A DNA stretch of 64,000 bases, taken from assembly GCA_027449865.1 (NCBI GenBank), contig DAIDKV010000009.1, forward strand, positions 1 to 64,000, read 5' to 3'. Every line of letters begins with the position of its first letter. Within the stretch, counting starts at the first letter, position 1. The position numbers and the translations under genes are program-made. Below, one piece after another: positions 33,696 to 39,758 of the stretch. The DNA comes from Planctomycetales bacterium (GTDB taxonomy: Bacteria > Planctomycetota > Planctomycetia > Isosphaerales > Isosphaeraceae). The notes below the pieces were generated by a model that saw only the letters and a list, made by a program, of their open reading frames with translations, was not told the DNA's origin and did no database searches.

Positions 33696-35225
33696 TCAGG
33701 CGGTGTCGGCCCTTCCGGGGGGTCGAAGCACATCGTGCCAGAGCCGGGTGTGGGCGAGTCCGCCCATTGCGAGCCACATCACCAGATAGGTCGCGCCGCC
33801 GCCGACCACGGCCAGCAGAACGTGATAGCGCTGGAGCACCAGGCAGGCGGGAACCATCACGATCGAGCCGACAATCGGCCGGGCGAGGTGGTGGTGCCAG
33901 GCGGGCTGGCGGCCCTCGCGGGCGAGGCATCCGTAGCCGGTGAGCACCAGGGCGAGCCCGACGATCAGCACGCCGGCAGCGGCGCCCGGCAAGCCGAAGG
34001 TCATCCGAAGGACAGCGACGAGCGGTCCGACCGCCACGGCCGCGGCGATCAGGGCCCGGACCCCGACCGACTCGCGGTTCATCGCGATCAAGGTGGTCTG
34101 ATAGAGATACGCCAGGATGAGCAAGGGAGCGCGCCAGATTCCGACCGCGAGCAAGAGGCCGGCGCCGGCGTCGTCGGAGAAGAGCCGTACGAGAGGGTCG
34201 GCGAGGACGGTTCCACCAACCGCGACGGGAACCAGCCCCGCGACCAGAACCTCAATGAGCGAGTCGAGAGCCTCGCGACCCGCGCCCGCGGTCTGTCGCC
34301 AGAGTCGAGAGAGCGCCGGGAAGGCCGCTTGCTGGAGGATCAGACCAAAGGTGAGGATGGCCGTCGAGAGGCGATGCGGCCGGTCGTACCGGCCGACGTC
34401 GGCCCAGGAGCTGAGGAACCCGACAACCAGGTAATCCGCGAGGTTGATCATCGCCTGTGAGATCTGGATCAGGCAGACGGTCCGCCCGCGGCGAACGATG
34501 ATCGAGAGGAACCGAAAGCTGAGCCTGGGCCGAGGCAGGCGGTAGTCTTTCAGGTAGTTCCCCCAGACGATCGCGATCCCGCTCATCTCGCCGATCGCGA
34601 GCCAGAGGGGAACCATCTGAATCTGGCCGGCGTCTCGGACCATCGCGAAGACCCCGGCCGCGTAGATGCTCGTTCGGACGCCGAGGGAGAACGCGACCAG
34701 GCCCATGCGCTCGGTGCCCCGGTAGACGTAGTCGAGCCCAATGGCCGTGGTGAAGAGCATCAGGCCGTAGAGCGTGAGGATGGTCCAGCTCATCCGGTCG
34801 GGGAGCGTCAAGCCGCCGATGACCGTCAGGCCGGTGAAGAGGATCATCGCGAAGAGGGTCTTGTAAGCGAGGACCTGGTCGACCAGCGGCCGGATCAGCC
34901 TTGGGTGGCGCGAGAGTTCTCGCGTCACGATGTAGTCGCTGCTGTCTCTCAGCAGGAGCACCAGCCAGAAGACCAGGTTGAACCCGAACCCAATTCGGCC
35001 GTAGTTCTCATCGTCGAGCCGGGTGGAGAGGTAGAGCATCACCACGATCGAGGTGGTGCGGCACACCAGTTCCGCGAGGCTCATGAAAACGAAGTTCGAT
35101 GCGATCCGGCGACGGGCCGGGCCGTCGACCCGGTGCTGTCGGGCCGGCCTGGGAATCCGACGGGCGGCCGTCGGCTCCGTGGCCTTCGCCCGAGGGGGTC
35201 GCGCGTTGATGGAGGTGCTGGCCAT
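33696..35225 (-). CDS. MOP/Wzx-type polysaccharide flippase
   Basis: A 509-residue membrane protein with about 12-14 helices after a basic, Pro-rich cytoplasmic start (PRPARQHRVDGPARRRIASN). The first family segment is FVFMSLAELVCRTTSIVVML, YLSTRLDDENYGRIGFGFNL, then FWLVLLLRDSSDYIV, as in oligosaccharide flippases. It moves lipid-linked sugar units across the inner membrane. ATG at 35225 is preferred to 35267 on spacing to an AAGGAAG sequence and on family length. It is the first gene of the flippase-glycosyltransferase-YfhO operon. Confidence 0.9.
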   Translation of the reverse strand: MASTSINARPPRAKATEPTAARRIPRPARQHRVDGPARRRIASNFVFMSLAELVCRTTSIVVMLYLSTRLDDENYGRIGFGFNLVFWLVLLLRDSSDYIVTRELSRHPRLIRPLVDQVLAYKTLFAMILFTGLTVIGGLTLPDRMSWTILTLYGLMLFTTAIGLDYVYRGTERMGLVAFSLGVRTSIYAAGVFAMVRDAGQIQMVPLWLAIGEMSGIAIVWGNYLKDYRLPRPRLSFRFLSIIVRRGRTVCLIQISQAMINLADYLVVGFLSSWADVGRYDRPHRLSTAILTFGLILQQAAFPALSRLWRQTAGAGREALDSLIEVLVAGLVPVAVGGTVLADPLVRLFSDDAGAGLLLAVGIWRAPLLILAYLYQTTLIAMNRESVGVRALIAAAVAVGPLVAVLRMTFGLPGAAAGVLIVGLALVLTGYGCLAREGRQPAWHHHLARPIVGSIVMVPACLVLQRYHVLLAVVGGGATYLVMWLAMGGLAHTRLWHDVLRPPGRADTA

Positions 35226-35427
35226 TCGCGAGGCACTTCCTTGTGCGTGGTCCAGGGCTCGCAGCACAACGAGCGCTACTCGCTCGCTGACGGGTTCTCC
35301 ACTTTCATCGGATCGCCCTTCTTCCCCACCTTAATCAGATTCCCCCGGGCACGATCTCGCCTGATGAGTGTTCCTGGTTGGGCGTGGAGCATGGTAGTGA
35401 GGCCCTCGGAGGGTGTCAACGGGAGCT

Positions 35428-36510
35428 TTAGGCGGCCCGACCCCGTCGAAGGCGGTCGAGGGTAACGGCGACCACGATGATGACGCCGATGACGATGTCC
35501 TGGACGGCGTTGGGGATGCCGGCGTGGACGCAGCCATTCTGGAGAACGGCGATGATCAGGCAGCCGATAAGAGTTCCAAGGACGGTTCCCTCGCCGCCGC
35601 TGAGGCTTCCGCCGCCGATGACGACCGCGGCGATCACCTGCAGTTCGAGGCCGGCGGCGGTGGTCGGCACGCCCACGCCGCCGAGCTTGGCGAAGTCGAG
35701 CACGCCGGCGAGACCCGCCGCGAGCCCGCCAACGGCGTAAAGGATGACCTTCATGCCGGGAACGTTGATTCCGCAGAGTCGAGCGGTGGCTTCATTGGAT
35801 CCGATTGCGTAAGAATAGCGGCCAAGCAGGCTGAACTTCAGCGAGACCGCGAGAAAGAGGCTCAGGAGCAGGAGCATCCAGACGCCGGGTGAGACCATCA
35901 GCCAGCGCGGCTCGGGCTGGATCGCGACCAGTCCGCCGAACCAAGAGGGTCGCATCGATGAGGGGACGTAGATCGTGGTGCTCGACGCCAGCCAGGTCGC
36001 CAGCCCTCGATACGCCTGATACGTTCCGAGCGTGATGATGAACGGGACCACGCGAAGCCCGGCGATCAGCCCGCCGTTGATCGCGCCGCAGAGGCCGCCG
36101 GTCAGAATGCCGACCACGATCGCCATCGGGACCGCGGCGTGCCAGGCCCGGAGCGACTCGGGGAGCATCGGGTCGACCTTCTTGATGAAGAGAGCCATCA
36201 CCACGGTCACCAGCGCCACGGTCGAGCCGACCGAGAGGTCGATCCCGCCAGCGATGATGATGAGCGTCATCCCCAGCGCCGCGGTCCCGACGATCATCGT
36301 GTGGCCGGCGATCGTTCGCAGATTGTCGGGTGAGAGGAAGTGGCCCGAGCCGCGCGTCAAATACGTGAAGAACCCAGCGATCAGCGCCAGGCCCACGAAC
36401 GGGCCGACGACCGTCCACACCCATTGCAGAACGTTCCGCAGCCGGCCCGGGCCGGCCGCTCGAATCCCCTCGATATCCTCGATTTCTTCTTTCAATGTTT
36501 TATCCTTCAC
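35428..36510 (-). CDS. sugar ABC transporter permease (RbsC-like)
   Basis: A 360-residue inner-membrane permease of the ribose/autoinducer-2/galactose class with about ten helices. Family segments: GMTLIIIAGGIDLSVGSTVA, GGLCGAINGGLIAGLRVVPF, IITLGTYQAYRGLA, YAIGSNEATARLCGINV and the coupling region GGVGVPTTAAGLELQVIAAV, VIGGGSLSGGEGTVLGTLIG. The GTG start at 36510 follows the ATPase stop by three bases. A single permease gene implies a homodimer. It is last in the binding protein-ATPase-permease operon. Confidence 0.93.
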   Translation of the reverse strand: MKDKTLKEEIEDIEGIRAAGPGRLRNVLQWVWTVVGPFVGLALIAGFFTYLTRGSGHFLSPDNLRTIAGHTMIVGTAALGMTLIIIAGGIDLSVGSTVALVTVVMALFIKKVDPMLPESLRAWHAAVPMAIVVGILTGGLCGAINGGLIAGLRVVPFIITLGTYQAYRGLATWLASSTTIYVPSSMRPSWFGGLVAIQPEPRWLMVSPGVWMLLLLSLFLAVSLKFSLLGRYSYAIGSNEATARLCGINVPGMKVILYAVGGLAAGLAGVLDFAKLGGVGVPTTAAGLELQVIAAVVIGGGSLSGGEGTVLGTLIGCLIIAVLQNGCVHAGIPNAVQDIVIGVIIVVAVTLDRLRRGRAA

Positions 36511-36513
36511 GCT

Positions 36514-38031
36514 TTAATCGGTCGATGACGAGGGATCGATACCTGCGCCCCGGGTAGCGACTTCCATCACGCGGTGTTCGGTCCAGTGGTCGAGGGGGAG
36601 GGCCTCGGTCAGGGCGCCCCGGGACATCACGGCGATCCGGTCGCAGATGCCGAAGAGTTCGGGGAGGTACGAGCTGACAACGAGGATGGCCTTCCCCTGT
36701 GCGGCGAGCTCGCCGAGGAGCCGGTAGATCTGAGCTTTTGAGCCGACGTCGATGCCTCGGGTCGGTTCGTCGAGCAGGAGGACGTCGGCCCGCTGGTGGA
36801 GGAGTCGGGCGAGGGCGACCTTCTGCTGGTTGCCGCCGGAGAGGCCGCCGACCGGCTGCCCTGGGCCGGCCGCGGCGATCCGAAGGCGTTTGATCCAGTC
36901 GTTAACCTCGCGCCGGCGCTCGCCCAGGCTGAGCCAGCCGCCGCGCGCGTGTCGACGGAGGCCAGGGTAGGTCATGTTGTCCTCGATCGGGAGGTTCAGG
37001 GCGAGACCCTCGCCCTTGCGGTCCTCGCTGAGGAAGCCGACGCCCTCGTCGATCCGCCGTCGCGGTCGAGCGGAGTTGTCGTCGGAATGGGCCACGCGAA
37101 CGCGGCCGTCGACCACCGGGCCCAGGCCGAAGATCGCGCGGACCAATCGCGTTCGCCCAGCGCCGACGAGTCCGGCGAGGCCGACAATCTCGCCGCGCCG
37201 GACGGCCAGGTCGACCGGCTTGCCGCGCTCCGAGGCCCGGAAGCCCGATAGCTCCAGGATCGGCTCGCCGGGTTGGTGCGGGACGCGAGGGAAGAGCTCG
37301 CCCGGATCCCGGCCGATCATCCGGGCGATGATCGAGCGCTCGTCGGTCTCGGCGAGAGTTCCCTCGCCGACCGACCGACCGTCACGAAGGACGGTGTAGG
37401 TCTGGGCGACCCTGCGCACCTCTTCGAGGAAGTGACTGATGTAGACGATCGCCATTCCCCGGTCGCGAAGGCGGTCGATGATCGCGAAGAGGCGGTGGGC
37501 GTCGCGCTCGGAGAGCGAGCTGGTCGGTTCGTCGAACACGATCACCCGGGCTTTTGAGACCAGCGCCCGGGCGACCTCGACGAGCTGCTGCGCGCCGACT
37601 CCGAGGTCTCCTACCCTGGCCTCGGGACGGATGTCGGGATGTTCGAGGAGTTCGAGGGCCTCGGCCGCGATCCGGCGATGTTCGCGAAGGTGCAGCCAGC
37701 CGCCCGAGGAACGCTCCTGGCCGAGCAGGATGTTGGCCTCGACGGTGAGCGCCGGTGCCAGGGCGAGCTCCTGGTAGATCATCGCGACGCCTCGCGAGAG
37801 GGCCTCGCGAGGGCCTCGCGGAGCGTAGGGCTCGCCGTCGAGGGTCATCGTGCCCGAATCGGGGCGGATCGCCCCGCTCAGCACCTTCATCAGCGTGCTC
37901 TTCCCCGCCCCATTCTCGCCGATCAGCGCCCGGACCTCGCCGGCGCCGACCGTGAGCGAGACGCCGTCGAGCGCCCGAGTGGCGCCGAACGACTTGCCGA
38001 CGTCCTGCATTCGCAGTTCTTTGAAGTTCAT
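36514..38031 (-). CDS. sugar ABC transporter ATPase (RbsA-like, two nucleotide-binding domains)
   Basis: A 505-residue protein with two fused ABC domains. Domain 1 has Walker A GENGAGKST (about 38-46), signature LGVGAQQLVEVARAL and Walker B ARVIVFDEPTSSL. Domain 2 has a degenerate Walker A, GLVGAGRTRLV, the consensus signature LSGGNQQKVALARLL and Walker B DVLLLDEPTRGIDVG. This asymmetry is normal for RbsA/MglA. It lies between the genes for the binding protein and the permease and should energise import of a monosaccharide of unknown identity. Confidence 0.94.
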   Translation of the reverse strand: MNFKELRMQDVGKSFGATRALDGVSLTVGAGEVRALIGENGAGKSTLMKVLSGAIRPDSGTMTLDGEPYAPRGPREALSRGVAMIYQELALAPALTVEANILLGQERSSGGWLHLREHRRIAAEALELLEHPDIRPEARVGDLGVGAQQLVEVARALVSKARVIVFDEPTSSLSERDAHRLFAIIDRLRDRGMAIVYISHFLEEVRRVAQTYTVLRDGRSVGEGTLAETDERSIIARMIGRDPGELFPRVPHQPGEPILELSGFRASERGKPVDLAVRRGEIVGLAGLVGAGRTRLVRAIFGLGPVVDGRVRVAHSDDNSARPRRRIDEGVGFLSEDRKGEGLALNLPIEDNMTYPGLRRHARGGWLSLGERRREVNDWIKRLRIAAAGPGQPVGGLSGGNQQKVALARLLHQRADVLLLDEPTRGIDVGSKAQIYRLLGELAAQGKAILVVSSYLPELFGICDRIAVMSRGALTEALPLDHWTEHRVMEVATRGAGIDPSSSTD

Positions 38032-38111: not shown

Positions 38112-39170
38112 TCATGGGAGCATTCCCGCGCCTTCGAGGGCGCGCATCATCCCGAAGGTGCTCGACTCGTTCGCGCAGAAGACGGCGTCGAACTGGCCTC
38201 GATACCGCGTGAGGAGACTTTCGGCCTTTTGCTGGGCCGAGTCAAAGGTGGGGCCGGCGTACTCGGAGTCGGAGACCATCTTGATCTCGGGGAACTCCTT
38301 CGCGAGGGTGTCGGTGAATCCCTTCTCGCGCTGTTCGGTGCTCTCGGAACCGACAGCATAGCGAAGAAGGATCAAGCGGCCCTTGCCGTGGAGGACCTCG
38401 CCGAGCCGGCGAGCGGCCAGAACGCCGCCATGGTAGTTGTCGGTGGCGACGTAGCTGACGGTCCTGTCGCTGTCGAGGTTGGAGTCGAAAGCGAGGACCG
38501 GGATCCCGCGGGCGATCGCCGCCTCGACCGGTTCGACCAGCGCCTGCGCGTCGAGCGGGGCGACGGCGATCCCGTCGACACCGGCGGCGACCGCGCTCTG
38601 GATCAGCTCGATCTGCTTGGTCCGGTCGTCCTCTTTTTGAGGGCCCATCCAGGTGATCTCGACGTTCCCCAGCTCCTCGGCCGCCTTCAGGGCGCCGGCG
38701 TGTACCGATTCCCAGAACTCGTGAGTGGTCCCCTTCGGAATCACGATGATCTTCCACTTCTTCGACTTCGGCCCGGAGAGGCTCGCGTTGCTCACGTTTT
38801 CCGCGCGGGCGGGGTGGATGAGCTTGTCGATCTCGGGCTGCTTGTAATTCTCGGGGGTGACGAGCGCCTCGCCGGTCGAGATCCGACGCTCGACAGGTTG
38901 CTTCTCCAGGCTCTTGACCAGTGTCTTGACGCTGGTCTCACCGATCCGGATCGGGTTCTGCACGACCAGGCCCTGAATGCGGCCCTGGCCGAGCGCGCCG
39001 ATGAGGGCCTCGCTCGCGTCGAAGCCGATCAGGACGACGCCCCTGTTCGCCGATCCGGCCGGCGCCGACGATCCGCCGGGGGCCGATCCGGCGCCCTCGT
39101 CGGATCCGCCACAACCCACCAGAACCACCGCTGCCAGCACAATCCCGATGTTCTTGCCCGGACGACTCAT
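38112..39170 (-). CDS. circularly permuted sugar-binding lipoprotein of an ABC transporter
   Basis: A 352-residue periplasmic lipoprotein. The signal peptide ends in lipobox VLVGC (Cys20), followed by a Ser/Gly/Ala linker. Residues 43-120 read GVVLIGFDASEALIGALGQG and LVVQNPIRIGETSVKTLVKS, then ALVTPENYKQPEIDKLIHP, which in ordinary RbsB-type proteins is the C-terminal part. After a short linker, residues 138-352 start KWKIIVIPKGTTHEFWESVH, normally the first strand of the mature protein, and run through FDSNLDSDRTVSYVATDN and TEQREKGF to FDAVFCANESSTFGMMRALE, stopping at GAGMLP, exactly where VGFD should follow. All ligand-contact segments are kept but their order is rotated. ATG 39170 has GGGGG eight bases upstream. 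It heads an operon with ATPase and permease genes. Confidence 0.88.
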   Translation of the reverse strand: MSRPGKNIGIVLAAVVLVGCGGSDEGAGSAPGGSSAPAGSANRGVVLIGFDASEALIGALGQGRIQGLVVQNPIRIGETSVKTLVKSLEKQPVERRISTGEALVTPENYKQPEIDKLIHPARAENVSNASLSGPKSKKWKIIVIPKGTTHEFWESVHAGALKAAEELGNVEITWMGPQKEDDRTKQIELIQSAVAAGVDGIAVAPLDAQALVEPVEAAIARGIPVLAFDSNLDSDRTVSYVATDNYHGGVLAARRLGEVLHGKGRLILLRYAVGSESTEQREKGFTDTLAKEFPEIKMVSDSEYAGPTFDSAQQKAESLLTRYRGQFDAVFCANESSTFGMMRALEGAGMLP

Positions 39171-39758
39171 CGGTTCAACCCCCGAATTCGATACGACCCT
39201 GGAATGGAGCCTCATCGTAGGGGCGCCGTTCTGGCCCCGTCAAGCAGGACGATCGCCATCCGCAGGACCAGGGCAACCCGCCCGATCGGCCCGTGTGTTG
39301 GGTTCGTTCGTCGCGTTTGGCGAGATCCCCCGGCCCATTTGGCTGCCATTCTGGCTGTCGCAAAATATGCGGCTGCCAGAGTTGGCTTCGTTTGTCGTCG
39401 GCGCTGGTCTTCGGCGCCGATCGGCGCCTGCCGGATTGGCAGCGGTGGGTTCGTTCGCGCGATTTTCGAGGGTGTCCTGGGGCTTTTCCTCATTTGCTGG
39501 GCGGCTCCGAGTGGGACCAGGCCTTCCCGAATTTGAGACGCTTCCTGCTTGGACGTCCGATCTGTTTCCGATGGTTGCTCGTTTTTCCCGAGAATGGGAG
39601 GGATGGGGTTGGATTGAGACAGATGAATCGATCGGATGAAAAAAAGGAAATCTCGGAACCCCTTGCGAAAATTCGGATTGCTGAATTCGATCGATTCTGG
39701 TTGAAATCCCGGTCGTATCTCCAGGGATGGATCCCCATGATCGCTGAAGGAGCCGACC
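39171..39758. other. divergent intergenic region with short direct repeats
   Basis: The region holds promoters for the leftward sugar transporter operon and the rightward PEP-CTERM gene. GGGTTCGTTCG occurs at 39300-39310 and 39447-39457, each followed by a similar cgcg..tt..cgag sequence, with a weaker third copy at about 39382-39397. The right part (about 39620-39720) is relatively AT-rich. GAAGGAG lies six bases before the PEP-CTERM ATG. No gene was recognised. Confidence 0.45.

Follow-up and report, generated by a model that had tools for sequence, protein, structure and literature searches.

Does a sugar-binding lipoprotein whose C-terminal end has been moved to its front represent a working transporter component, or an artefact of assembly or gene decay? 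This question is raised by a gene at positions 38112-39170 of the minus strand of a 64,000-nucleotide stretch from a Planctomycetales bacterium of the family Isosphaeraceae (contig DAIDKV010000009.1 of assembly GCA_027449865.1), referred to here as the window. An earlier note on this DNA had described the product as a circularly permuted type I sugar-binding lipoprotein with intact frame and retained ligand contacts, cut in a loop of one lobe, functional and not decaying, and without a described natural counterpart in this transporter class. Its interpretation was supported in part: the permutation proved intact, conserved and embedded in an operon, but the claim that no natural case had been described did not stand. 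The segment order, its conservation, the single clade, the operon and the selection pattern, all taken from sequence, make it very probable that the gene encodes a functional substrate-binding lipoprotein, circularly permuted, that serves a CUT2-type ATP-binding cassette (ABC) importer. The features of the gene are as follows.

38112-39170, minus strand: circularly permuted CUT2-type sugar-binding lipoprotein, 352 amino acids plus stop
39111-39170, minus strand: signal peptide and lipobox, residues 1-20, VLVGC, with Cys20 as the predicted lipidation site (sequence)
39042-39110, minus strand: Ser/Gly/Ala-rich tether, residues 21-43, predicted to be disordered (AlphaFold2 predicted local distance difference test, pLDDT)
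38808-39041, minus strand: C-module, residues 44-121, equivalent to residues ~209-271 of mature RbsB, with ligand-contact residues Asp51 and Gln71 (phmmer, RbsB alignment)
38760-38807, minus strand: linker, residues 122-137, bridging the ancestral C- and N-termini (ortholog alignment, AlphaFold2, RbsB alignment)
38115-38759, minus strand: N-module, residues 138-352, equivalent to residues ~4-205 of mature RbsB, with Phe152, Trp153, Asp229, Arg281 and Asn334

Swapped segment order and position of the cut

The frame at 38112-39170 gave a stop-free translation of 352 residues, and an alternative start at the in-frame ATG at 39215 would lengthen it by 15 residues to 367 amino acids. The N-module corresponds to the N-terminal three quarters and the C-module to the C-terminal quarter of a CUT2 sugar-binding protein. 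The equivalent of the C-module sits last in proteins of normal order, whereas it comes first after the tether in the window protein. When the protein was compared with PDB entries by phmmer, residues 141-307 matched residues 7-175 of 4rxt and residues 39-120 matched residues 215-296 of the same chain; 3ksm and 4wut were matched in the same two swapped pieces. The family profile PF13407 (Type I, Cluster B, CUT2) was matched over both its parts, but with the C-segment preceding the N-segment, contrary to the canonical order. Profile positions 1-209 lay downstream in the gene at 38750-38115 (177.9 bits) and positions 205-256 upstream at 39059-38901 (24.2 bits), with 200 bits in total.

Escherichia coli RbsB, with its sequence taken from the MG1655 record, was used to locate the cut. 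The first segment alone scored 69 against RbsB, compared to a maximum of 54 among 1000 shuffles, and was equivalent to mature residues 209-271, while the second segment was equivalent to mature residues 4-205. Thus, the cut lies at RbsB residues 206-208, in the loop before a strand of the C-lobe. Two normal orthologs scored 622 and 613 against the window protein as it stands, and 797 and 795 once its segments had been reordered. A leftover C-terminal segment downstream of the gene was considered and rejected, with only 80 bases lying between the stop codon and the ATPase gene (start 38031).

Conservation of the order within the Isosphaeraceae

In a scan of 45 Isosphaeraceae genomes (E <= 1e-25), the gene was present in 29, with 27 full-length copies, one truncated where its contig ends (G064) and a broken one (G027). 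All 29 copies were permuted, and no ortholog of normal order, either alone or as a second copy, was found in the 45 genomes at this threshold. The same order was present in the complete chromosome sequence of Singulisphaera acidiphila DSM 18658 (NC_019892.1) as well as in Singulisphaera sp. GP187, Tautonia sociabilis and Aquisphaera insulae, and it is by these named loci that the scanned family was recognised as the Isosphaeraceae. Quick trees (treekit) were built on reordered sequences, and, while many forks were weak, the permuted genes of the Isosphaeraceae type formed one clade with a support of 99 in the Shimodaira-Hasegawa-like approximate likelihood ratio test (SH-aLRT). Three loci titled Bacillota and Candidatus Kuenenia (L078, L092 and L093) carried the permuted gene within the Isosphaeraceae clade and are probably mislabelled bins.

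Since the assembly holding the window consists of 278 contigs, a chimeric join was considered, together with a decaying duplicate. The same order was shared, however, by 27 full-length genes drawn from many separate assemblies and by the complete S. acidiphila sequence; an assembly artefact is ruled out by this conservation and by the complete reference. Decay is contradicted by the purifying selection on both parts described below. Taken together, a chimera or decaying duplicate is extremely improbable. At the sequence level, the permuted order is confirmed as real, and as neither artefact nor decay.

Predicted fold

AlphaFold2, supplied with 19 permuted orthologs, gave a confident prediction over the mature protein (pLDDT 87, predicted template modelling score (pTM) 0.80), and pLDDT fell below 50 solely at residues 1-4 and 12-41, i.e., in the signal and the tether. 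This prediction also bears on a domain-swapped dimer, in which the C-module would complete the N-module of a second chain and the monomer would not be self-contained. A single chain was predicted with high confidence across the mature part, a linker of 16 residues leaves little length to reach another chain, and the natural permutant TpMglB-2 has been described as monomeric (PMC4990184); a domain swap is therefore considered unlikely, and a self-contained permuted monomer is preferred.

Ligand contacts and selection

Ten ribose-contact positions of RbsB and the limits of its lobes, as in the known RbsB structure, were transferred to the window protein. F15, D89, R141, N190, D215 and Q235 of RbsB were identical (F152, D229, R281, N334, D51 and Q71, respectively), and F16 was replaced by Trp (W153). 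Counting this exchange, seven of the ten contacts were kept, largely as the earlier note had anticipated, and the protein has the inter-lobe ligand-contact residues of a Type I CUT2 binding protein. D51 and Q71, both within the moved segment, were invariant in the 19 orthologs, as were Cys20 and Gly21.

Ratios of nonsynonymous to synonymous substitution rates (dN/dS) were low for both modules. For the C-module and the N-module, respectively, they amounted to 0.051 and 0.045 in comparison with the closest ortholog, and to 0.049 and 0.017 between the two Singulisphaera genes. These values indicate that purifying selection acts on both modules, which, together with the family-wide conservation, bears out the view of a functional rather than a decaying gene.

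Some observations weigh against a working sugar-binding protein or narrow what it may bind. First, N13, R90 and F164 of RbsB were replaced by H150, S230 and P307. Since Arg90 is exchanged for Ser230 and Phe164 for Pro307, the ligand is probably not ribose, and the genes neighbouring the transporter loci gave no clue to the ligand. Second, 16 of the 45 Isosphaeraceae genomes were without a copy at E <= 1e-25, and the G027 copy (L052:4900-5850) was broken by a frame disruption; thus, either these bacteria can do without the system or some of the assemblies have gaps. Third, the best PDB matches of the window-protein model in Foldseek were sugar-binding proteins of the same class, but the alignments of ~210-226 columns cover mainly the N-module because Foldseek follows chain order.

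Operon and orthologs of normal order

Two transporter genes follow the binding protein gene directly.

36514-38031, minus strand: CUT2-type ABC ATPase, AraG/XylG/RbsA-like, 505 amino acids, not permuted (conserved neighbour)
35428-36510, minus strand: CUT2-type permease, RbsC/AraH/GguB-like, 360 amino acids (conserved neighbour)

The window protein is thus encoded together with a CUT2 ATPase and permease, as is typical of a Type I CUT2 binding protein, and the order binding protein-ATPase-permease was retained in most permuted and normal loci having enough flank. In several Isosphaeraceae, a gene resembling polysaccharide flippases (PF01943) is found close to the operon (window 33696-35267, L084:10766-12328 and L095:4261-5664). 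Across the binding protein gene itself, a long antisense open frame runs on the plus strand (window 38229-39536, 435 amino acids from a TTG), which is probably a mechanical shadow open reading frame of GC-rich DNA.

Wider scans took in 398 genomes from the class and 392 from the phylum. They returned orthologs from outside the family with up to 58% identity in the N-module. In those orthologs whose DNA was examined, the C-module followed the N-module, except for the genes of a further order described below. Normal-order orthologs were spread over many families of the class and phylum, and relatives of normal order also occurred in Verrucomicrobiota, Acidobacteriota, Gemmatimonadota and Armatimonadota. 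Normal-order orthologs such as L061, L062 and L109 share with the window protein the N-module (<=58% identity), the lipobox and, at most loci with enough flank, the ATPase and permease genes that follow, but differ from it by the segment order N then C. By a simple pattern, a lipobox was found in 57 of 61 normal-order orthologs and in 22 of 24 permuted ones; the two Singulisphaera genes, which failed the pattern, have Cys-Gly-Gly at the equivalent place. The tether from the Cys to the first module was longer in permuted proteins (median of 21.5 residues) than in those of normal order (13 residues). E. coli RbsB (1DBP, 2DRI) resembles the window protein in fold class and in most ligand-contact positions, but is a soluble periplasmic protein of normal order, and 68 of 271 aligned positions (25%) were identical after reordering.

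Comparison with known permuted binding proteins

A permuted type I glucose-binding lipoprotein, TpMglB-2 (Tp0684) of Treponema pallidum (PDB 5JX2), was described in 2016, and the designation 'Type Ic / Cluster Bc' was proposed for it (PMC4990184). The earlier claim that no natural case is described in this transporter class is contradicted by this protein, and PDB 5ER3 (see below), judged by sequence and Foldseek, is another solved permutant. For TpMglB-2, a crystal structure has been reported, together with binding of glucose and a change of shape on ligand binding (PMC4990184). A literature search gave no further natural permuted solute-binding proteins, with most subscription journals and preprints outside its reach.

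Both TpMglB-2 and the window protein are natural permuted type I sugar-binding lipoproteins of ABC importers whose hinge region contains a new connection. TpMglB-2, however, is an MglB relative of spirochaetes and Gram-positives and is cut in the N-lobe, with the first three strands transferred to the C-terminus, whereas the window protein is cut in the C-lobe at RbsB residues 206-208. The window protein shares with Type Ic the circular permutation of a type I protein, but the first three N-lobe strands are not at its C-terminus. Since the cut of TpMglB-2 lies in the N-lobe, the window protein falls outside this subgroup, although it probably works like TpMglB-2.

The moved part is poorly conserved in TpMglB-2, and Brautigam et al. 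raised the possibility that it was recruited from elsewhere (PMC4990184). Applied here, the first module would stem from another gene and merely resemble a lost C-terminus. The moved part of the window protein is, in contrast, well conserved, and in the normal-order genomes G044, G048, G054, G058 and G045 clear C-module matches, with ~35-49% identity, follow directly on the N-module matches of the same ortholog. Recruitment is thus very unlikely. The authors of the TpMglB-2 study also proposed that membrane anchoring may have favoured permutation (PMC4990184). Since 57 of the 61 normal-order orthologs have a lipobox as well, tethering alone is insufficient as a cause.

Further permutations in planctomycetes

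The N-module was split into Na (residues 135-262) and Nb (residues 263-352), and the groups P1 (Isosphaeraceae) and P2 were named by gene order, not by tree. Eight distinct genes from other planctomycetes (L057, L059, L113, L114, L118, L127, L129 and L149, the last being the same gene as L058) showed the order Nb-C-Na (P2), with a cut at about RbsB residue 121. The same ATPase gene followed in seven of the eight and was not seen at L059. The approximately unbiased (AU) test rejected a common origin of P1 and P2 as one clade (p = 0.008) but did not reject a single origin of the Nb-C-Na group (p = 0.42). These results indicate that Nb-C-Na is a second, independent permutation of the same ortholog family, which is new here. 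Its predicted fold was as confident as that of the window protein (pLDDT 87, pTM 0.82), and the best PDB match was 5ER3.

PDB 5ER3, from Rhodopirellula baltica SH 1 and released in 2015, is itself a permuted planctomycete CUT2-type binding protein that is collinear with the window protein: phmmer matched query residues 43-294 to chain residues 84-335, and Foldseek aligned 312 columns, albeit loosely (root-mean-square deviation 8.0). Its planctomycete relative L041 matched 5ER3 over nearly its full length (E = 2.9e-102) but 2qvc and other normal proteins in swapped pieces, and is cut at about RbsB residue 144. The window protein does not belong to the 5ER3 type, whose members are cut at ~144 (via L041) and start inside the C-lobe: its own cut is at 206-208, and the two are far more distant in sequence. 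L040-L043 and 5ER3 form a third permuted group, with a Glu/Pro/Ala-rich C-terminal tail on L041 and L042. Judged by sequence and Foldseek rather than by coordinates, 5ER3 is a third natural permutant, one that has apparently gone undescribed; the literature search, with the reach stated above, found no paper naming 5ER3 with Rhodopirellula. Several permutation events with different cuts are thereby supported.

Proposed mode of action and origin

With fold and lipidation predicted, we infer binding, transport and the route of origin as follows. The protein would be exported and carry a lipid at Cys20. The C-module (44-121) and the N-module (138-352), with the ancestral C- and N-termini joined by the linker of ~16 residues, would close into the ordinary two-lobed sugar-binding fold. 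This fold may clamp a monosaccharide-like ligand and pass it to the permease and ATPase encoded directly downstream. Since the new termini lie in the C-lobe loop (RbsB 206-208), the membrane tether would exit from lobe 2 and not from lobe 1. A single event, no later than the ancestor of those Isosphaeraceae that carry the gene, would have given rise to the permutation. Circular permutations are usually explained by duplication and truncation, and a tandem duplication that then lost its outer parts is probably the route taken here; no tandem-duplicate intermediate was present among the loci with flank.

Significance

Natural circular permutations of solute-binding proteins have rarely been described. 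In the Isosphaeraceae, the end of a sugar-capture protein has been moved to its front, and this order has been kept across the family. Since permuted and normal orthologs share the operon setting and up to 58% identity in the N-module, the effect of relocating terminus and tether can be tested on natural pairs. The recurrence of different cuts shows that new termini at several loops preceding strands are compatible with the fold, a tolerance that is relevant to models of binding-protein evolution and to terminus placement in biosensors. Caution is advised for annotation pipelines, which see permuted proteins only partly. It can be suggested, tentatively, that the Planctomycetota are a hot spot of natural permutation of CUT2 binding proteins, with at least three events at three cut sites, all in lobe 2 and each shifting the tether from lobe 1 to lobe 2. 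Should this hold, something in planctomycete import, for instance tether geometry or docking on the permease, may favour attachment by lobe 2.
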